This document shows, piece after piece, positions 6,764 to 21,277 of a stretch of DNA of 21,608 nt. Both the position numbers and the translations under genes were made by a program. The stretch's first letter is position 1. The number at the start of each line of letters is the position of its first letter. Origin of the DNA: a virus; IMG/VR virus record IMGVR_UViG_3300046714_000041, positions 1 through 21,608 of that record, one strand, 5' to 3'. The notes under the pieces were generated by a model. The model was not told the origin of the DNA. It made no database searches and saw only the letters and a list, made by a program, of their open reading frames with translations.

Positions 6764-7459
6764 CCTCTTTACCGCCCATCCGTCTGTTGAGCTTTTTGAC
6801 CGCGTCGAGCATGTCGTGCCCGGACATCGGGCCCGGGTCGGGCTTCGCGACTCCCCACTTCGGCAAGAACGCGGCCGGCTCGTGCGCCCGCTGATTCTTG
6901 CCCCGGTTCACGTTCGCGATCGTGGCTTGCAGCATCGAGAACAGGTGATCGAACCGGTCGTCGCCGATCGGCCCGGCGACCCGCTCGTACGCCGCCCACT
7001 CGGTCAGCTCGCGCGAGTCGATCCGGGCGAGCAACTCGCCGACCGTGCAGCCCAGAGCGAGAGCTAGTCGGAAGTAGCGTCGTCGTTCCGGGCGGCGCCG
7101 AAATCCTCGGTCAGCTTGTCGACGTCATCCTCGCTGAGGCCGGCGAGCTTCCGGCACGCGTCGAACAGTCGGTCGAGCGGCTTCGCGTTCTTACGGCCGA
7201 GCACGTTGAGGTCGTCCGGCGTGAAGAGTAGGCGCCCGGCGTCGTCGACCGCGCAGAGGATGATCAGCTTCGCCCGTGCGTTGCGCAGGTTCATCTGACG
7301 ATTCCCGCCCCGCTCGACGATGAGGCTCGCCTCGTAATCGTCGCGCTGCCGGCCCTTGATGCTCTTGAGCCGCACGTCGCCGCCCCACTCGGGGCAGGCG
7401 ACGACGTCGTACTCGGTGTCGTCGGTCTCGACGATCTGATCTCTTGTCAGGAATGCCAT
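6747..7459 (-). CDS. Tail assembly chaperone, frameshifted long form (gpGT-like)
   Basis: A second frame, -1 relative to the upstream chaperone, runs from near 7124 to a stop at 6747. Its conceptual sequence RRRYFRLALALGCTVGELL, followed by ARIDSRELTEWAAYERVAG, is the classical C-terminal extension of siphovirus tail chaperones. It has no good start of its own, so it must be made by a -1 shift from the upstream gene. Slipping at GAT TTC (about 7100) would give a fusion of about 237 residues. The fusion binds the tape measure and recruits tail tube subunits, as lambda gpGT does. The frame runs 17 bases into the tape measure gene. The frameshift is strongly implied by the frames, but the exact slip codons are inferred. 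Confidence 0.8.
7064..7124 (-). promoter_or_regulatory. Programmed -1 frameshift window
   Basis: A TGA in the -1 frame at 7127-7125 and the zero-frame TAG at 7066-7064 confine the shift to about 60 bases. No textbook X XXY YYZ heptamer is present. The most plausible slip is GGATTTC at 7106-7100 (zero frame GAT TTC), where the Phe tRNA can re-pair on TTT. GCC GCC CGG just downstream is a weaker alternative. Confidence 0.55.
7064..7459 (-). CDS. Tail assembly chaperone, short form (gpG-like)
   Basis: 131 residues, starting MAFLTRDQIVETDDTEYDVV at ATG 7459 and ending at TAG 7064. The pattern of an N-terminal beta domain (CPEWGGDVRLKSIKGRQRDD) followed by helices (LIILCAVDDAGRLLFTPDD, LGRKNAKPLDRLF, CRKLAGLSEDDVDKL) matches actinophage tail assembly chaperones. 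It lies between the major tail protein and the tape measure, the invariant place for this gene. It is needed in excess over the long form during tail assembly. The ribosome site AAGGGAGAG is rather far from the ATG, with about 11-13 bases between. Confidence 0.88.
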   Translation of the reverse strand: MAFLTRDQIVETDDTEYDVVACPEWGGDVRLKSIKGRQRDDYEASLIVERGGNRQMNLRNARAKLIILCAVDDAGRLLFTPDDLNVLGRKNAKPLDRLFDACRKLAGLSEDDVDKLTEDFGAARNDDATSD

Positions 7460-7484
7460 TGCGGGTGTCTCTCTCCCTTGTTTT

Positions 7485-7922
7485 CTAGCTGCCGGTCTGC
7501 GTGAGGATCGGCTTGCCGCTGACCTTGAGCGTCAGCGACCGCGCCATCTTATCGTCGTACGGGAACTCATCCCCGAGCGTCGTAAGGATGCCCGTGATGG
7601 CCCATGTGTGCTCGTCGGCCGTGTCAGGCAGAATGACGATCTGCCAGTTGCGCGGCGTCGTGTCGTCGAAATCGTCGTCGATGTCGTGCGTGGCCTCGGC
7701 CGGGTCGTAATTGATGTCGCAGGACAGCTCGCCGCCGTCCTTGAGACCACCGATGAATTCCATCCACCCGTCGGGCGAGTCGTGCGAGGTGACGTCGATC
7801 GTCTCGCGGGTGCGCTCGGGCCCGCCGATGTTGGTGACGTTGGCGATCGTCTCGAAGGTGGTACCCGGCGACAAGGTTGTCGCCCGGCGAAGCTGTGTCC
7901 CAAAACCGTCACGTCCGCTCAT
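7485..7922 (-). CDS. Major tail (tube) protein
   Basis: 145 residues with the recognisable tube-protein opening FGTQLRRATTLSPGTTFETI, then ANVTNIGGPERTRETIDVTS, SHDSPDGWMEFIGGLKDGGE and NYDP. These are conserved in lambda gpV-like tube proteins of actinophages. It stacks in hexameric rings to form the tail tube. Its length is short but normal for this subfamily without an added Ig-like domain. A textbook AAGGAGG site sits seven bases before the ATG at 7922 and overlaps the terminator gene's stop, in keeping with high expression of a structural protein. Surface Ser/Thr residues make it one candidate acceptor for the phage's own glycosyltransferases (inference). Confidence 0.92.
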   Translation of the reverse strand: MSGRDGFGTQLRRATTLSPGTTFETIANVTNIGGPERTRETIDVTSHDSPDGWMEFIGGLKDGGELSCDINYDPAEATHDIDDDFDDTTPRNWQIVILPDTADEHTWAITGILTTLGDEFPYDDKMARSLTLKVSGKPILTQTGS

Positions 7923-7929
7923 GGCGGCG

Positions 7930-7936
7930 CCTCCTT
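7930..7936 (-). promoter_or_regulatory. Consensus ribosome binding site of the major tail gene
   Basis: AAGGAGG on the minus strand, seven bases upstream of the ATG at 7922 and overlapping the TAA stop (7937-7935) of the preceding gene. It is among the strongest sites in the window and fits a highly expressed virion protein. Confidence 0.8.
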
Positions 7937-8384
7937 AGGTGAGTTGCGCCGTTGCGACGCGGAACCTGACTACATGATGCCTGATCTCCGGGTCGGGATC
8001 GGTAAGTGCCTGGTCAAACTCAGCGCGGATCGAAACGAGCTTGTGGCCCTCGGCCCGCAGCAGGTCGTCGAGCACCTCGGTTTGGTGGTCGAGTAGCTCG
8101 ACGATCCGGTTCGCGATGTCCTGCCCGGCCTTGTTCCCGCGCTTGAGCGTCCAGATGTGCAGGGTCATCACGACGTTCCGGCCGAAGCCGCCGTGATCGT
8201 TGTCGGGTGTGCTCAGGAAATCGCCGACCCGAACGTACGGCTTGACGTCGCCCTCGGGCGGTTGGTCGTACACGGCCTGCCGGTCGGCGAGCAGCGTGAC
8301 GAGCGTCGCGTCGGCCCTGAGCCGGGTGACGACGATCTTCTGTAGGGCGTTGATCGGGCTCGTGCTCGGCAACGACATCGTCAT
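7935..8384 (-). CDS. Tail terminator / tail completion protein (DUF3168-like)
   Basis: 149 residues. Features of the DUF3168 tail-terminator family are visible: an N-terminal helix with INALQKIVVTRLRADATLV, then VYDQPPEGDVKPYVRVGDF, MTLHIWTLKRGNKAGQDIAN, and IVELLDHQ followed by a beta-rich end. Such proteins cap the tail tube and dock it to the neck. The start overlaps the gp10-like gene by ATGA at 8384-8381, and the next gene is the major tail protein, the usual order. The assignment rests on family pattern plus position. Confidence 0.82.
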   Translation of the reverse strand: MTMSLPSTSPINALQKIVVTRLRADATLVTLLADRQAVYDQPPEGDVKPYVRVGDFLSTPDNDHGGFGRNVVMTLHIWTLKRGNKAGQDIANRIVELLDHQTEVLDDLLRAEGHKLVSIRAEFDQALTDPDPEIRHHVVRFRVATAQLT

Positions 8385-8755
8385 GCCCTCATCTCGGCCC
8401 GCACGGCGGCGCGCAGGCGATCGGGGAACCGGCGGGCTGTCTCTTCGGTCACGGGCGTAACAAAGTCGTTCGCCGGCGTGTCGTCCGTGCCCCTCACCAC
8501 GAACTCAGCATATTTCGCCGTGATGGCGACCGTGCCGGAAAGGGTCCGTTTCGCAATCCGCCTCCTGATCGAGTCGCGCAGAAAGCCGGTCAGTACGGGG
8601 GCGTCGCGGCGCAAGTCCTCGGCGGTCTCGTCAACCTCTTCGCGGACCGCCCGGCGGGCGCCTGCGTCGATCTCGGCCGGCAGGCGCTGCAACTTGCGAT
8701 CAAGCTCCTCGGCACCGAAAATCTTGATCTTCACGCGAGCCGCAGGCCTAGCCAC
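8381..8755 (-). CDS. HK97 gp10-like neck/tail protein
   Basis: 124 residues, starting GTG at 8755. It has the HK97 gp10-like layout: an N-terminal strand with FGAEELDRKLQRLPAEI, a helix RRAVREEVDETAEDLRR, the hallmark DAPVLTGFLRDSIRRR, the strand TVAITAKYAEFVVRGTDD, and a C-terminal helix (PVTEETARRFPDRLRAAV). The family acts at the head-tail joining step before the tail terminator. The stop overlaps the next gene by four bases, and the start overlaps the 60-residue gene by eight bases. The order gp10-like, terminator, major tail protein is standard, which helps fix where the sugar cassette interrupts the neck. Confidence 0.9.
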   Translation of the reverse strand: MARPAARVKIKIFGAEELDRKLQRLPAEIDAGARRAVREEVDETAEDLRRDAPVLTGFLRDSIRRRIAKRTLSGTVAITAKYAEFVVRGTDDTPANDFVTPVTEETARRFPDRLRAAVRAEMRA

Positions 8756-8930
8756 GCGTCGCCCGCCGCGCCTGCCGGTACTGCTCTTGCCTCATCGTCT
8801 TGAGCTCGTCGCCGATCGCGATGAGCGCCCAAGCCTGCGCCAGCTCGGGGCGGCCCGACGTCGCCGCCTCCACGGCCTGCTGGCGGGCGGACGGGCCCGG
8901 GTCGGCGTCCGGCACCGGGTCGCTACTCAT
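8748..8930 (-). CDS. Small hypothetical neck-region protein, 60 residues
   Basis: A 60-residue protein starting MSSDPVPDADPGPSARQQAV. An acidic, Pro-rich N-terminus is followed by one long amphipathic helix (LAQAWALIAIGDELKTMRQE) and a basic end (QARRATRG). It overlaps the genes on both sides by eight bases (8923-8930 and 8748-8755), which supports it being real and co-translated. No family is recognised. It might be a small adaptor or assembly helper at the neck, but nothing in the sequence shows this. A longer in-frame start at 9056 is rejected because it would run through the upstream coiled-coil gene. Confidence 0.6.
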   Translation of the reverse strand: MSSDPVPDADPGPSARQQAVEAATSGRPELAQAWALIAIGDELKTMRQEQYRQARRATRG

Positions 8931-9417
8931 TGCCCGGCAGGTGCACGATGACGGGCGGCCCCGTGCGCTTGCGCGGCTTCGGCGGGGCGACGGCGGCCAG
9001 CGGCTCGGGCTTGGCTGACCATCGCGGGTCAGCGCGCGCCGTGACGATCTCGTCAAGTACCAAGTCGACCAACCATCCGGGCTCGCGGTCGTCCTCGGCC
9101 GGCAGGTCGACGCTGAGACCCGCTAAGCCCTCGGCGAGCCGCGCCAGCTCGGCGTCACGCCCGGCGAGGGTCTCTTCAAGCTCGGCGACGTCGTTCTCCA
9201 ACTGCGCGACCCGCTCATGTGAGGCGGGCACCCCGGCGTCGGACGGCTCCCGACCGTCGACCACGAGGGCGACAACCATCGGCACCCAATCGCCCGGGTT
9301 GGCGAGCACCGCCGGATGGTCGGCCTCGGCGAGCGTCTTGCCGCGGGCGACGCGGTACTTCGTCCCGTCCGGGGCCCGCAGGATCCCGTCGCGCCTCGAA
9401 ACGACGATGCTGGTCAT
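8923..9417 (-). CDS. Hypothetical coiled-coil protein next to the sugar cassette
   Basis: 164 residues. The N-terminal domain (about 8-52: RDGILRAPDGTKYRVARGKT, then ADHPAVLANPGDWVPM) is a small beta-type unit seen in Streptomyces phage neck regions, function unknown to me. A coiled coil follows (about 67-101: HERVAQLENDVAELEETLAG and on). The end is Pro/Lys-rich (PPKPRKRTGPP). ATG at 9417 is favoured because it overlaps the glycosyltransferase stop by ATGA. The same frame is open up to 9822, but that part shadows the glycosyltransferase. It could be a virion component or an assembly adaptor. Confidence 0.72.
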   Translation of the reverse strand: MTSIVVSRRDGILRAPDGTKYRVARGKTLAEADHPAVLANPGDWVPMVVALVVDGREPSDAGVPASHERVAQLENDVAELEETLAGRDAELARLAEGLAGLSVDLPAEDDREPGWLVDLVLDEIVTARADPRWSAKPEPLAAVAPPKPRKRTGPPVIVHLPGNE

Positions 9418-10136
9418 GCCGGTACCCCCTGCTCGATGAGTGCGCGTACGGCCTTCACGTCGGCGAGCTGACGGCCGTTGCGTGACCACGCCCGATAAGC
9501 GCTGCGGTCGCTGCGATACTGCTCGCTGCCGTTGACCCGCTCGTACTGATCGTCGGTCGGCGCCTTGCCGGCGACCGGGTGCATGTGCTCGATCATGACG
9601 TCGTCGAGGTAGCTCAGGCACCCGGCACCGAGGCCGAGGTCGCGTACCGCGTTGTCGCAGTACAGGTGATCGACCGGCGCGGGCACCATCCGGCCGAGCT
9701 CGCGCACGATGTCGCTGGTCATGGCCCACTGGGTGGGGATGTTGTCGTGTTGGTACCCGTCGTCGCAGAACACGATGCCCGTGCCGCGCGCCCGCAGCTC
9801 GGCGACGTACCGGCCGACCCAACCCTCGGTGCGGGGTAGGTGGTCGTCACCCGCGAAGCCAAGCGCGTACGCATATCTACCTATTGCCAAACTGACCGCG
9901 GTCCGGTTCAGCTTCGGCACCAGGGGCCGCCACACGTCGGCGTACAGCGTCGACACGCCCTCGCGACGGTTGATCAGGGCGGCCCGGTAGTCGTCGTGCC
10001 GCGGGTCGTCGCGGTCAACGACGAACAGTAGTTCGGCGCCCTCGTCGAAAGCGCCGGTCGCCTGCCACGCGGCGACGACCCGCTCGACGGACTCGGGCCG
10101 CGAGCGAGTGGGCACGATCGTGACCAGGTCGATCAT
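9414..10136 (-). CDS. Glycosyltransferase (GT-A fold, actinophage type)
   Basis: 240 residues, starting MIDLVTIVPTRSRPESVERV, the nucleotide-sugar-binding N-terminus of GT2-like enzymes. The metal/sugar site appears as GFAGDDHLPRT (D97-D98-H99). Further conserved blocks are ADVWRPLVPKLNRTA, FCDDGYQHDNIPTQWAM, DHLYCDNAVRDLGLG, and IEHMHPVAGKAPTDDQYERV. No membrane segment or signal is present, so it acts in the cytosol on a host nucleotide sugar. ATG at 10136 gives an ATGA overlap with the upstream gene; the extension to 10250 is Arg-rich shadow. Proteins of this kind recur in actinophage structural operons, and related enzymes glycosylate virion proteins. The donor sugar and acceptor cannot be read from the sequence. 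Confidence 0.85.
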   Translation of the reverse strand: MIDLVTIVPTRSRPESVERVVAAWQATGAFDEGAELLFVVDRDDPRHDDYRAALINRREGVSTLYADVWRPLVPKLNRTAVSLAIGRYAYALGFAGDDHLPRTEGWVGRYVAELRARGTGIVFCDDGYQHDNIPTQWAMTSDIVRELGRMVPAPVDHLYCDNAVRDLGLGAGCLSYLDDVMIEHMHPVAGKAPTDDQYERVNGSEQYRSDRSAYRAWSRNGRQLADVKAVRALIEQGVPA

Positions 10137-10411
10137 GAGACGCGCGCGAACGGGGGGTCGCGGGGCGGCCATGACCACTGGCCGGGGCCGTCGCCGGGGC
10201 CGACGTTGTGCTCGGCGAAGCCGGGCGAGCCGCCCGGGGTGAATACCCATAGGTGAACGTGATCGTCGTCGGTCAGCGGCGGCACCGAGCCGGACTCGAC
10301 GCCGGACGGGTCGAGGGTGTGCACGTCGGCCGTGACGACTGCTGCGCGGACCGCGTTCAGGCCCTGGTTACCCCGGTAGCGCAGGATCCGGCCCGTCGTT
10401 GGTTTCGTCAT
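10133..10411 (-). CDS. Hypothetical protein inside the sugar cassette, 92 residues
   Basis: 92 residues, starting MTKPTTGRILRYRGNQGLNA. It is a compact, probably beta-rich protein with DDDHVHLWVFTPGG and a Pro/Trp-rich end (GPGQWSWPPRDPP). It resembles small hypothetical proteins found in the structural operons of Streptomyces phages; I know no function. It overlaps the glycosyltransferase start by ATGA and lies 27 bases after the FkbM gene. The purine run GAGGGG abuts the ATG. Placement between a methyltransferase and a glycosyltransferase suggests a role in glycan modification or as an acceptor, but this is only context. Confidence 0.7.
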   Translation of the reverse strand: MTKPTTGRILRYRGNQGLNAVRAAVVTADVHTLDPSGVESGSVPPLTDDDHVHLWVFTPGGSPGFAEHNVGPGDGPGQWSWPPRDPPFARVS

Positions 10412-10438
10412 CCCCTCAGCATATCTGCTAGCTATCGA

Positions 10439-11068
10439 TCAGGGCAGCGGCTCGGTGGGGCGGCGGGGCGTGAGCAGCAGATCACACCACGCCTCGTCGC
10501 GCTTCCATTGGATCCGCGGCGTCCACCCGCTCTCGCGGCACCATTCGAGCAGGTGCGGCAGGTACGCGCCCGGCGCGCCTGCGCGCTCGACCTGGGTCTC
10601 GATGATGATCAGATCGAGCGGGTCGAGGTAGGCGGTCGCGAGCGCTTCGAGCTCGGTGCCCTGCGTGTCGACGACGAGCACATTCCCGCCGTGCTCGGCC
10701 TGCACGTCGGCGATCGGCACGACGTCGACCGGGAACGCCCCGGCCGGTTTCTGCCGCTTGTCGATCTGCAACCCGGAAAACGGCGTGATCTCGGCGCGAT
10801 GGAACGTCGCCGTGCCCCGGGGGCCGCAGGCCTTGTTCACGATCCCGACACCCGGTTCATTGATCCACGCGGATCCCGCGATCACGTCACAGTTCTTCGG
10901 GTCGGGCTCGACGAGGGTGATGCGCTCGAAACCGGCCGCGAGGTAGATCGGCACCTCTTCGCCGTGATGCGCCCCGACGTGCAGCACGCCGCCGGGGCGG
11001 ATCCTCAGCTCTTCGATCGCGGGGCCGAACAGTCGGAACGACCAGCGCCAATCGTGAATGGTCCTCAT
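10439..11068 (-). CDS. FkbM-family SAM-dependent methyltransferase
   Basis: 209 residues. Class I methyltransferase motifs are clear: GGVLHVGAHHGEEVPIY (SAM loop, about 27-42), ITLVEPDPKN with acidic E54, and VLVVDTQGTELEAL with D134, the FkbM signature. LDLIIIETQVERAG follows. FkbM relatives O-methylate hydroxyls on sugars and polyketides. In this operon, between two glycosyltransferases, the likely substrate is the glycan they build. ATG at 11068 is preferred because it gives an ATGA overlap with the upstream methyltransferase and follows AGGGGGGC. The in-frame extension to 11158 lacks family similarity. No membrane segment is present. Confidence 0.87.
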   Translation of the reverse strand: MRTIHDWRWSFRLFGPAIEELRIRPGGVLHVGAHHGEEVPIYLAAGFERITLVEPDPKNCDVIAGSAWINEPGVGIVNKACGPRGTATFHRAEITPFSGLQIDKRQKPAGAFPVDVVPIADVQAEHGGNVLVVDTQGTELEALATAYLDPLDLIIIETQVERAGAPGAYLPHLLEWCRESGWTPRIQWKRDEAWCDLLLTPRRPTEPLP

Positions 11069-11748
11069 GCCGCCCCCCTGTGATCGGTGCGTTCCCACCA
11101 CCCGGCCGGATGGTGAGAGATCGGCGTCATGAGCTCGACCGCCTCGTCGCGGCGCCACAGATCGTTAGCGCCGAGCTCGCGCGTGATGGCCCGCAGGGGG
11201 CCGCCCGTGCGGGGGATGTGCCGCCCGATCGGCTCGGCGACCTCGTCTGGCGCGAGATCCGCGATGCCGTCCTCGACGACCAGGTAACAGCCGCGCGAGA
11301 CGAGCGGGCCGTACGCGCGGATCTCGCGGCTGACGTGCGGGGCGTGATGATCGCCGTCGAGCGCGACCATGGTCCGGCGGCCTCGGGTGAGGTCACGCAC
11401 CCGCCGAACGACGTGCGGGTCGATCGAGCTGCCCTCGACGACGTTGGTCACGCCGGGCCACGCGTCCGGCCGGCCCTCGGCGCGCTCGATGTCGACCGCG
11501 ACGACCTGCACGCCGCAGGTGTCGGCCAGCCACGCGGCGAAACCGCCCCACTTGGTACCCACCTCGACGACCACCTCGGGGCGGGTCTGCTCGATGACCT
11601 GCCGGTACCGGGCGAGGTCGTCGAGCGTTTTCCATACGCGCAGGCCCTCGTGCGTCTGCGTGAAGTCGCCCTCTCGATCGAACGTCGCGCAGCTCGCGGC
11701 GACGTCGAGCCCGGTCGTCAGCAGGGGCAGGTGCCGACCGCCCATCAT
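11065..11748 (-). CDS. CmcI-like (cephalosporin hydroxylase/rhamnosyl O-methyltransferase family) protein
   Basis: 227 residues with a class I SAM fold: VVVEVGTKWGGFAAWLAD (about 59-76), VVAVDIE with D86, VVEGSSIDP, and MVALDGDHHAPHVSREIRAY (about 127-146), ending in YLVVEDG. This is the CmcI family, whose members include cephamycin CmcI-type proteins and rhamnosyl O-methyltransferases. The Asp/His-rich DGDHH segment is the expected metal/substrate region. Here a sugar O-methyltransferase role is more sensible than antibiotic hydroxylation. It starts at ATG 11748, with a second ATG at 11745; both overlap the glycosyltransferase stop. It is coupled by ATGA to the FkbM gene after it. Confidence 0.82.
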   Translation of the reverse strand: MMGGRHLPLLTTGLDVAASCATFDREGDFTQTHEGLRVWKTLDDLARYRQVIEQTRPEVVVEVGTKWGGFAAWLADTCGVQVVAVDIERAEGRPDAWPGVTNVVEGSSIDPHVVRRVRDLTRGRRTMVALDGDHHAPHVSREIRAYGPLVSRGCYLVVEDGIADLAPDEVAEPIGRHIPRTGGPLRAITRELGANDLWRRDEAVELMTPISHHPAGWWERTDHRGAA

Positions 11749-12422
11749 GCGTCACTCAGCGGGTGCCAGAACAGGAGCGGGTGCACGATCAGCGGCATCG
11801 GCCCGGGGACCGCGACGACCTTGCGATCAGGGCCCCACGATGAGCCCTCATGCGACCACAGATAGTGATACATGATCTTGTCGATATATGCCTCGGTGCC
11901 GAGCCACCCGCGCAGTTGCTTGACCCACATGCGGTCTTCGGCTCGGCCCCTCTTTGCCCGCCCGAAGTGCCCGCGCAGCGCGATGTCGCGCCGTAGCGGG
12001 TCGATGTGCGTGAAGTCCCGGACGAGCTGCCCCTCGGCGTTGCGGTGCCATCGGCCGTGACGTAGCGAGTGATCCACGATCTCGCGGCCCACCTGCTCGC
12101 CGCCGCTCTCTGTCGTGTATTCGAGCTGAAACCCGACGTGATCCGGTCGGCCGGCGAGCGCCGCGACGACCTCGGCGACGTAGTACTCGGGCACGAGGTC
12201 GTCGTCGTCGATGAACGACACGTACTCGCCGGGCGCCGCGATGACCAACGCGTCCCGCAGCGCGCCGAGGTGCGGGTGTCCGGTGTTGCGCCACGCGAGC
12301 ACCGTGACCCGCCCCTCGTGCGCGTCCAACTGCGGCAGTAGTCGATCCATGAGGCGGGCGAACAGCGTCGCCCGGGCGGGGATCGTGGGCACGAGGATCG
12401 TCCATGTCGGCGGCTCGGTCAT
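11745..12422 (-). CDS. Glycosyltransferase family 2-like protein
   Basis: 225 residues, starting TWTILVPTIPARATLFARLM as in GT-A enzymes. The metal-binding site is VSFIDDDDLVPEYYVAEVV (D72-D75). A region after about 140 (GHFGRAKRGRAEDRMWVKQL) supplies the acidic/basic acceptor-side residues typical of GT2, and the end is hydrophobic and aromatic (VHPLLFWHPLSDA). It has no membrane helix. It overlaps the head closure gene by ATGA at 12422-12419, so it is made along with virion proteins. It differs clearly from the other glycosyltransferase in the window, suggesting two steps such as priming and extension, or two acceptors. Substrates are unknown. Confidence 0.87.
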   Translation of the reverse strand: MTEPPTWTILVPTIPARATLFARLMDRLLPQLDAHEGRVTVLAWRNTGHPHLGALRDALVIAAPGEYVSFIDDDDLVPEYYVAEVVAALAGRPDHVGFQLEYTTESGGEQVGREIVDHSLRHGRWHRNAEGQLVRDFTHIDPLRRDIALRGHFGRAKRGRAEDRMWVKQLRGWLGTEAYIDKIMYHYLWSHEGSSWGPDRKVVAVPGPMPLIVHPLLFWHPLSDA

Positions 12423-12772
12423 GGTAGTTCGCGCTGCCCCTCGCTCTGTATCTGCTCACAGTCCGCCCGCAGGTACTCGGGCTCGCTCGGATGGATCGTG
12501 TACTTCACGCGCAGGCGGTCGCCGTCCGGGCGGCGCAGCTCGTCGCCGCGGCGAACGTCGGCGGTCGGCTTGAGGTGCACGGTCATCGCCATGGTCGTGC
12601 CGGCCTGCTGCGCCTCGATCTGCTCGGCCGCCGTGGGTTGGCTGACCTTCGCGCGCACGCGCGCGACCTCGGTCAGCGCGACGGTCGTGCCGCCCTGGCC
12701 GTCGTCGACCTCGCCCGGGCGCCAGACGGTCAGCCACTCGCGCAGCTCGTGCGACCCGATGGGGACCGTCAT
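12419..12772 (-). CDS. Head closure / head-tail adaptor protein (SPP1 gp16-like)
   Basis: 117 residues with a small beta-barrel pattern: LREWLTVWRPGEVDDGQGGT, VARVRAKVSQPTAAEQIEAQ, TTMAMTVHLKPTADVRRGDE, then RLRVKYTIHPSEPEYLRADCE. The GQGG turn after the first strand, the w/rAkv block, the AEQ-aq helix and the closing strands are those of SPP1 gp16-like head completion proteins, which close the portal and dock the tail. ATG at 12772 is chosen over 12793 because it makes an ATGA overlap with the connector. The next genes in a standard phage would be gp10-like and terminator; here the sugar cassette intervenes. Confidence 0.78.
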   Translation of the reverse strand: MTVPIGSHELREWLTVWRPGEVDDGQGGTTVALTEVARVRAKVSQPTAAEQIEAQQAGTTMAMTVHLKPTADVRRGDELRRPDGDRLRVKYTIHPSEPEYLRADCEQIQSEGQRELP

Positions 12773-13243: not shown

Positions 13244-14779
13244 TCATGATGCGCCGACCCACCATGCGGTAGACCCGCCGGACGTCGCGCCGAGATTCTC
13301 GGGCGCGCTCGCGGCCGTCGTGAGGCCGGCGTTCGCGGTCGCGTACCGAGCCGTCCCGGCGGTCAAATTGATGTTCAGCATTGACGATCCCGCGTTGGTG
13401 TTGCGCGAGAACGACGGGCCGCCGCTGCCATTCCACCAAAACGCGATCTTGTACCAGGCCCCCGGGGTGATGCCGCCCTGCGGTGTCACGAGCGGGCAGA
13501 CCTTGGCGCCGCTGTCGCCCCACCCGCCGGCGCCCGTGTTGTGCAAGCTGCCCGTGATGGCGTCGGCGCCGATCTTCGCGCCCGCGTCGTTGTGCACCGT
13601 GGCGTAGCACTGGTTTGCCGTCAGCACGCTGCCGCCGACCGTGAGGTGGAAATGCAGGTTCGTCAGCACCGACGAGAGCAGTTTGATCCGCACGACGTGC
13701 GCGAGGCCCGCCGTGGGCACCGCCGTGCCCGCCTGCTGGTCTTGCGGGTCGAACGTCCAGCCAATCAGGCCGTGATCGAACGGCGTCGGCAGCGGGTCGA
13801 CGGGCGACATCGACACCCATGTGCCCGGGGTGCCGCCGGACACGCACCGGTACAGCCCGGTCCGGGTCATCACGATCTCGCCGGCGGCCCATGTGCCCGA
13901 CGTCGGGGCGCGCGGAATGTCGAGGTATCCGGCGAGGCCGAGGTTCGTCGCGCCGTTCTTCGCGCCGAGGTTGGCAACACCGCCCGCGCCGTCGATCGAC
14001 TGCTCGGAAAGGTCCGCAGTCGACCCGAATTCGGTCAGCCCGGCGAGCGTCGTGCCCGCGGCGCGCCAGCGCTGTATGCCGGTCTGGGCGCCGCTGAAGC
14101 CGGGGCCCGCAAAGCTGGACACGTAGACGTCGCCGGACGTCTTGTCGATGTCGACCGCGCCGCCGGTGCTGCGCAGGCGCAGGCCCGCGCTGAGGTCACC
14201 CTTGCGCACGACGAGGGTCGAGTCGACGACCTGCCCGTCGAGCGCGTCGAGCTTGGTTGCCAGGCCGTCCGTGAGCGCCTGCTCGGTGGCGAGGTCGTCG
14301 ATATCGGCCGCCACGAGGTACGACCCGGTCGGCTGCTTTCCGTCGAGCGCGGTCTGTAGGCCCGTGACGTCGCCGATCGCGATCGGCAGGGTCGGCACCG
14401 TGTCGGCCAGCGCCTCGAGCTGCGCGAGGGTCGCGTACGTCACGCCCGGCACGGCCGCGCCGTCGGGCTGGAACACGTCGGCGAGCTCGGGCGTCAAGTC
14501 CTGATAGTCGAACTGCGCCGTGCCCCGAAACGTGCCCTGCTCGCTGGACACGACGACGTCGTAAGGCCAGTCGACCGGCGTCCACAGCGGGTCATTGTTG
14601 GCGGGCAGCTCGAAGGTGGTCAGACCGTCGGCGTCGGTCTCTTTCGCCTCGGCGAACGGCCGGACGATGCTGTTATCGCTCGGGCCTTGCAGCGGATACC
14701 GGGCCTCGAACCGCACCCGCGCGAGGCCGTCGAATTTGCACCGGACCGTGACGACGGTCAAGCCATCGGGAAACGGCAT
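13244..14779 (-). CDS. Fibre-like/decoration protein encoded in the head module
   Basis: 511 residues. Residues 1-95 form a beta-rich N-terminal domain (TVVTVRCKFDGLARVRFEAR; RGTAQFDYQDLTPEL). A collar-like segment (about 133-185) includes DVTGLQTALDGKQPTGSY, a motif typical of trimeric phage fibres. Residues 186-325 are Gly-rich beta structure, and about 340-511 is a jelly-roll-like C-terminal domain (VVRIKLLSSVLTNLHFHLTV; GAWYKIAFWWNGSGGPSFSR). The gene sits between capsid and connector genes, far from the tail tip genes, so it may decorate the head or neck. It is a good candidate acceptor for glycosylation because it is Ser/Thr/Gly-rich. GAGAGGCG precedes ATG 14779. A tail or neck fibre remains possible. 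Confidence 0.75.
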   Translation of the reverse strand: MPFPDGLTVVTVRCKFDGLARVRFEARYPLQGPSDNSIVRPFAEAKETDADGLTTFELPANNDPLWTPVDWPYDVVVSSEQGTFRGTAQFDYQDLTPELADVFQPDGAAVPGVTYATLAQLEALADTVPTLPIAIGDVTGLQTALDGKQPTGSYLVAADIDDLATEQALTDGLATKLDALDGQVVDSTLVVRKGDLSAGLRLRSTGGAVDIDKTSGDVYVSSFAGPGFSGAQTGIQRWRAAGTTLAGLTEFGSTADLSEQSIDGAGGVANLGAKNGATNLGLAGYLDIPRAPTSGTWAAGEIVMTRTGLYRCVSGGTPGTWVSMSPVDPLPTPFDHGLIGWTFDPQDQQAGTAVPTAGLAHVVRIKLLSSVLTNLHFHLTVGGSVLTANQCYATVHNDAGAKIGADAITGSLHNTGAGGWGDSGAKVCPLVTPQGGITPGAWYKIAFWWNGSGGPSFSRNTNAGSSMLNINLTAGTARYATANAGLTTAASAPENLGATSGGSTAWWVGAS

Positions 14780-20616: not shown

Positions 20617-20807
20617 AGCGGGCCGATTTGGCTCTCGACGCCGTCGACCAGCTCATCGAGCGCGCGGGCGAGGCGCGGCCACGCGAGGCGCACGAGCCGC
20701 CTACGCGCGCGGGCACGCCTGGACGGGGGGCGGCGCCAATTCTGCGCGAGCTGCGCAGCGGGCGCCGCGGCAGCGTGCCGGAAGACGTACGTCTGCTCGT
20801 CGGGCAT
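20613..20807 (-). CDS. Small basic protein between terminase genes, 64 residues
   Basis: 64 residues, starting MPDEQTYVFRHAAAAPAAQL, with a strongly basic middle (RRPPSRRARARRRLVRLAW) and a C-terminal helix (ALDELVDGVESQIGPL). ATG 20807 forms TGATG with the small terminase stop, and the gene's own stop overlaps the large terminase start as GTGA. Both junctions fit a real, coupled gene. Charge and place suggest nucleic-acid binding or a packaging accessory, but no family is recognised. A longer in-frame reading to 21395 is a shadow of the small terminase gene. Confidence 0.65.
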   Translation of the reverse strand: MPDEQTYVFRHAAAAPAAQLAQNWRRPPSRRARARRRLVRLAWPRLARALDELVDGVESQIGPL

Positions 20808-21277
20808 CACAGCTCGCCGAAGTTGCCGCGGGTCACGTTCGCCGGCAGAGGGGCATTCGGGTCGGCCGCCTTGACGTAGCGGATGCGCAGGTCTCGCCGG
20901 GCGTCGCGGGTCATGCCGAGCATTTTCTCGCGCTGCCGCAGCTCGGCGCCCGAGGCGCACCCGCGCCAACCCTCGACGAACCGAGCATGGGTCTCGGCGG
21001 CGCCGCGGGCGGTCTCCCACTCGGCGCGGGTCCACAGCTTGCCGTGGGGCATCGTGCGGACGGCCTCCCACCATCGCAACGTCGCGTCGGGCCACGCGGT
21101 CGCCATCACGCCGATGGGACGGCCCTCGCTGGACGCGCTGTCGACCGGGCGGTCGCCGAGCGGCGGGCCGTCGAACGGCACGTCGGGCACCTCGGCCCAC
21201 TCGGTACCCGGCTCGGCAGCGTTCCGGCGGCGGACCTCGGACCGGTCCTCGACCGGCTTCGTTCCGGGAAGTGCCAT
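20807..21277 (-). CDS. Putative terminase small subunit
   Basis: 156 residues. The N-terminus is polar (MALPGTKPVEDRSEVRRRNA) and ends a Pro/Asp-rich segment. The core reads ATAWPDATLRWWEAVRTMPH, then GKLWTRAEWETARGAAETHA and SGAELRQREKMLGMTRDARR, as in the small terminase family common in Streptomyces phages. It recognises the packaging site and presents DNA to the large subunit. Only a basic 64-residue gene separates it from that partner. ATG at 21277 is three bases after the previous gene's stop, with GAGGGCTGAG as a ribosome site inside that gene's end. No classical helix-turn-helix can be assigned by eye, so the call rests on core pattern and position. Confidence 0.78.
   Translation of the reverse strand: MALPGTKPVEDRSEVRRRNAAEPGTEWAEVPDVPFDGPPLGDRPVDSASSEGRPIGVMATAWPDATLRWWEAVRTMPHGKLWTRAEWETARGAAETHARFVEGWRGCASGAELRQREKMLGMTRDARRDLRIRYVKAADPNAPLPANVTRGNFGEL

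Follow-up and report, generated by a model that had tools for sequence, protein, structure and literature searches.

Two glycosyltransferases and two sugar-type methyltransferases inserted at a variable neck site in a soil actinophage lineage: a probable cassette for methylated virion glycosylation

A five-gene cassette encoding two glycosyltransferases (GTs), two methyltransferases (MTs) and a small conserved protein interrupts the neck genes of the virus analysed here, and its best reading, which we consider probable, is methylated virion glycosylation. The enzymes very probably build a methylated sugar; we infer the virus particle as target of the glycan, together with the activities, sugar, step order, acceptor, substrate and linkage. 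The cassette as such is well supported and is notable for a fixed neck locus with swappable contents and for its CmcI-type enzyme, and involves no new principle.

The window (the whole stretch analysed, a 21,608-base IMG/VR virus record) is a genome fragment with its structural genes arrayed on the minus strand in the order portal, MuF-like, scaffold, major capsid, a 511-aa putative head fibre, adaptor and head closure (the portal, MuF, scaffold and fibre labels were assigned from sequence and position). Head closure is followed by the five cassette genes, P6, P7s, gp10-like, tail terminator, major tail protein, chaperone and tape measure. The region from head closure to gp10 comprises:

12419–12772, minus strand: head closure Hc1, left flank (PF05521, 9.1e-9; phrog_25, 3.2e-9)
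11745–12422, minus strand: GT-a, GT2-like glycosyltransferase, 225 aa (homologous to Che8 gp108 N-terminus and phiAsp2 Pas33)
11065–11748, minus strand: CmcI/rhamnosyl-O-methyltransferase family (PF04989) methyltransferase, 227 aa (PF04989, 2.3e-30)
10439–11068, minus strand: FkbM-family methyltransferase (PF05050), 209 aa, ATG start at 11068 (PF05050, 3.8e-7; phrog_36045, 6.9e-29)
10133–10411, minus strand: P4, small conserved protein, 92 aa (phrog_2293, 8.5e-9)
9414–10136, minus strand: GT-b, glycosyltransferase of predicted GT-A fold, 240 aa (homologous to the N-terminal half of phiAsp2 Pas34)
8923–9417, minus strand: P6, lineage-specific neck-region protein, right border of the insertion and outside the cassette (directly after head closure in cassette-less relatives)
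8748–8933, minus strand: P7s, small lineage protein between P6 and gp10
8381–8755, minus strand: HK97 gp10-like neck/tail completion protein, right flank (PF04883, 7.3e-9; phrog_5, 1.8e-18)

The ORFs, positions and families reported for this interval in the initial annotation all check out. Overlaps of 4 nt (ATGA) join head closure to GT-a, GT-a to CmcI, CmcI to FkbM, P4 to GT-b and GT-b to P6, while FkbM and P4 are separated by a 27-nt gap; the overlaps said to tie the set to structural genes on both sides are present, except that the right-hand neighbour is P6 rather than gp10. At the other end of the array, a small gene upstream of the large terminase (20807–21277), in the usual place of a small terminase, matches phrog_226, ‘minor tail protein’.

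GT-a scores just under the PF00535 cut-off (22.3 against 23.3 bits), matches phrog_14775 (glycosyltransferase, 1.3e-42) and PDB GT2 chains (E 2e-4 to 3e-3), and contains a DDDD motif (residues 72–75) invariant across 22 homologues. For GT-b, the Pfam search gave no family match; the protein matches phrog_2675 (1.7e-69) and phrog_14945 (‘glycosyltransferase’, 1.2e-38) and has an invariant GDDH motif. The structure prediction suggested as a check in the initial annotation gave, for GT-b, an AlphaFold2 model (30 homologues; pLDDT 95.2) with a confident GT-A fold, matched by Foldseek to GT2/GT-A enzymes in PDB (E about 3e-8, TM 0.5–0.64). Both proteins are accordingly placed with GT2/GT-A enzymes, by an acidic motif in each and by fold for GT-b only. 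Long hydrophobic segments are absent from the cassette proteins (maximum 19-residue Kyte-Doolittle mean 1.4), which speaks against GTs embedded in the membrane. The label of phrog_2675, ‘DNA methyltransferase’, is probably mistaken and could lead to misannotation in other phages: its member Pas34 of phage phiAsp2 (L003, 7863–9650) consists of GT-b plus a PF13578 methyltransferase domain.

The CmcI-like protein scores 106.3 bits against PF04989 (RMNT_CmcI; cut-off 23.2; E 2.3e-30) and matches CmcI itself (PDB 2bm8) at E 4e-10 in profile comparison. At the presumed catalytic metal ligands of CmcI, the Glu-Asp pair of its VVED motif aligns with E186/D187, and the residue aligned with position 160 is non-acidic, with D131 and D133 on either side. 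CmcI of cephalosporin biosynthesis and the rhamnosyl O-methyltransferases belong to this same family, and the Glu-Asp pair of VVED is shared with CmcI. Unlike cephalosporin CmcI, however, the window protein is encoded beside GTs in a phage structural array, so that a sugar rather than a cephalosporin is the expected substrate. A search of 50,697 phage records (named phages) detected no CmcI-type enzyme, even at E of 1 or below; such enzymes are present in 65 viral contigs, with GT-b within 3 kb in 58 of these. In unrelated lineages, the CmcI/GT-b set follows an Lsr2-like/connector-like gene located downstream of capsid (L010) or lies between capsid and adaptor (L035). The phage setting of CmcI-type enzymes and their pairing with GT-b are what is new here. 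The second methyltransferase scores 30.8 bits against PF05050 (cut-off 22.7) and has relatives in Streptomyces phages.

Homologues of P4 have 53–75% identity, and its AlphaFold2 model (pLDDT 47.7) is too poor for use. In two relatives (L078, 3816–4070; L080, 3259–3513), a P4 homologue separates the major tail protein gene from that of the tail assembly chaperone, suggesting that P4 is mobile inside the structural array. Elsewhere, the slot directly upstream of GT-b is occupied by a different protein of 80–96 aa (phrog_5120/1761; L013, 8700–8963; L071, 7718–8008; L175, 7003–7245) with LRKLLEAKDCFVR near its end, which may resemble Acb2/Tad1-type anti-defence hairpin proteins.

Relatives were gathered with a major tail protein profile and gene context was obtained with iterated profiles. 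Glyco-enzymes lie between head closure and gp10 in 33 of the 47 distinct relatives whose sequence covers this interval, and none was recognised there in 14. P6 comes directly after head closure in L138, L140 and L154, and in L140 these two genes share the same ATGA overlap as GT-b and P6 in the window. As P6 stays beside head closure without the cassette, it is a neck gene and the cassette the part that was gained or lost; membership of P6 and P7s in the cassette, also considered, is ruled out by this persistence of P6. The empty sites confirm the earlier proposal that the cassette splits the neck genes, and by comparative gene order the head closure–P6 site is a real insertion hotspot.

The commonest cassette consists of GT-a and GT-b alone (16 relatives), followed by GT-a, GT-b and FkbM (6). 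CmcI-bearing cassettes are rarer (two besides the window), and both methyltransferases occur together only in the window within this set. L159, L162, L163 and L166 instead have, in full or in large part, a non-homologous set comprising a PF13524 GT-B-type enzyme, an NTP-transferase-like protein (PF12804 matches weak) and FkbM. In one of the 14 relatives without a recognised glyco-enzyme (L152), the ORF right after head closure (7266–8444) has a Stealth_CR2-like region and an Lsr2 DNA-binding domain. Ten cassette-bearing relatives have one PF00535 match and one phrog_2675 match each, and cassette-less L138 and L140 have no match to either elsewhere. Given the different enzyme mixes, or none, at this site in dozens of relatives, the locus resembles an exchangeable slot for decorating the particle, of a general kind already known.

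In Mantel tests over 24 loci, pairwise distances of the two GTs follow those of head closure and tail terminator (r 0.68–0.72, p 0.0005) about as closely as the distances of structural genes follow one another, and the GT pair has therefore been largely inherited with the neck; methyltransferases and small ORFs have a patchy distribution among relatives. Cassette genes are under purifying selection (pN/pS 0.26–0.56, against three relatives). The arrangement, conserved in dozens of contigs and with pN/pS of 0.26–0.56, is not due to chance.

Gene sets of comparable composition have been linked to particle modification in other phages. In Corndog, an O-methyltransferase and GTs located between portal and protease were proposed to modify the capsid (PMC4351075); Che8 gp110 and Corndog gp38 are reported to be essential glycosyltransferases in capsid glycosylation (PMC12363180), and cluster O phages are said to modify capsid and tail tube in this way (PMC11600133). 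Che8 gp108–110, Corndog gp35–38 and Firecracker gp33–36 likewise combine tandem GTs with a sugar-type O-methyltransferase, and the Corndog/Firecracker set (O-MT, GT, GT and GT25, between portal and protease) lies inside the head genes, as the window cassette lies among structural genes. The N-terminal half of Che8 gp108 is a homologue of GT-a (hhalign 98.6%, E 6e-16), and its C-terminal half is a TylF/Methyltransf_24 O-methyltransferase; gp108 adjoins gp109 and gp110, and GT-a thus has a homologue within a tandem GT/O-MT set. Comparison of GT pairs with Firecracker gp34 and gp35 yielded no significant match. Whereas the Che8/Corndog methyltransferase is of TylF type, those of the window are CmcI and FkbM, the site is head closure to P6, and GT25 (PF01755) was not found in the window (a fragment) or in six ~40-kb relatives, while Che8 and Firecracker positive controls matched. 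Judged on gene content, the window cassette cannot simply be counted among Che8/Corndog systems, as the GT25 reported to be essential there was not found in the window or the six relatives, and the initiating enzyme would have to differ from theirs. The description of a methylated, two-transferase pathway with a CmcI-like enzyme as less explored needs narrowing: Corndog/Firecracker and Che8 already pair TylF-type O-methyltransferases with GTs, and it is the CmcI type for which named phages gave no match.

Actinoplanes phage phiAsp2 also encodes homologues of both GTs side by side near its capsid gene, as Pas33 and Pas34 (45% and 48% identity). In Pas34, however, GT-b is fused to the PF13578 methyltransferase, while in the window it is separate; no CmcI or FkbM gene was seen beside Pas33–Pas34, and the pair is not between head closure and gp10. 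The fusion of both GT families to O-methyltransferase-type domains elsewhere strongly suggests that glycosylation and methylation share a single product. Streptomyces phages such as Yara (genes 28–30) have a GT, a second protein and FkbM in a row, resembling the alternative cassette of L163 and L166; this row is found in nine phages, with 29–36% identity to P0003. The Yara-type set differs in that its GT is PF13524 (GT-B type), it lacks CmcI and it follows a large gene of unknown function.

Under the preferred reading of methylated virion glycosylation, the five genes inserted by this soil actinophage lineage between head closure and P6 would form a glycan-decoration cassette, presumably expressed late along with its structural neighbours. 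Two soluble GT-A-type GTs would attach a short glycan to a virion protein, and hydroxyls of this glycan would be O-methylated by two SAM-dependent methyltransferases, one of CmcI/rhamnosyl type and one of FkbM type. Use of host sugar nucleotides is assumed because no PF01370 epimerase, looked for as a mark of phage-encoded sugar-nucleotide synthesis, was found in 12 relatives. If the glycan is on protein, GT-a or GT-b should start it, given the single match of relatives to each of PF00535 and phrog_2675. The acceptor may be the major capsid protein, the tail tube or the head fibre (13244–14779), a candidate glycan acceptor. The fibre gene lies between capsid and adaptor, its product has no Pfam match and few relatives have one. 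In a Ser/Thr comparison of structural proteins with and without cassette, no acceptor stands out, and the differences are confounded by relatedness. The O-methylated-glycan pathway co-expressed with structural genes, as put forward in the initial annotation, thus gains comparative support (empty sites, co-inheritance with neck genes, GT/O-methyltransferase fusions, GT-a/gp108 homology), whereas its virion-protein target is retained as a presumption.

The main rival holds that, late in infection, the enzymes act on a glycan of the host surface (wall polysaccharide, teichoic acid or glycolipid) and so mask the receptor, either against superinfection or against progeny sticking to debris. The best fold matches of GT-b in the Foldseek search include RmlT, TarP and TarS, glycosyltransferases that decorate wall teichoic acid, but fold similarity at TM about 0.6 is no predictor of acceptor. 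Also in favour of this explanation, actinobacterial envelopes have O-methylated sugars made by GTs and sequential O-methyltransferases (PMC3594219). However, the cassette is kept at one site in the structural array, its GTs are co-inherited with neck genes, it has no long hydrophobic segment or flippase-like partner, and GT-a is homologous to a protein of the Che8 operon; action on the wall is therefore considered unlikely.

Passenger cargo (a ‘moron’) with a product unrelated to virion or wall, such as a glycosylated methylated small metabolite, or serving another host process, would fit the patchiness of methyltransferases and small ORFs, and the PF04989 and PF05050 families also work in antibiotic pathways. 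Retention of GT-a and GT-b in most of the lineage under purifying selection, replacement by analogous GT sets at the same site and a cassette without metabolite-building genes nevertheless make this quite improbable. Modification of phage DNA bases is suggested by the ‘DNA methyltransferase’ label of phrog_2675; that label fits Pas34, whose methyltransferase domain (PF13578) is no DNA MT family, and the MT families here are small-molecule/sugar O-MTs. No thymidylate-synthase-type enzyme (hydroxymethylated bases) was found in 12 relatives, the control matching in 9 of 14 genomes. With a fused GT/O-MT-type protein behind the PHROG label and no thymidylate synthase in relatives, DNA modification was judged very unlikely.

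Phage-encoded virion glycosylation is a recent finding, mostly from work on mycobacteriophages, where it changes antibody recognition; for environmental actinophages, animal immunity is an improbable driver of glycan diversity. Tentatively, and with some doubt, the neck site may be a dedicated surface-diversification locus: there the GT pair would stay constant while its sugar O-methyltransferases (CmcI, FkbM or fused) are exchanged, or the whole set would give way to an analogous one, so that soil actinophages obtain varied methylated virion glycans started by a GT unrelated to mycobacteriophage GT25. If methylated virion glycosylation is the true function, the CmcI type would be a new phage-encoded sugar O-methyltransferase family, and the existence of a fixed neck site at which sugar methyltransferases can be swapped would mean that glycans on the particle are widespread and varied among environmental actinophages.
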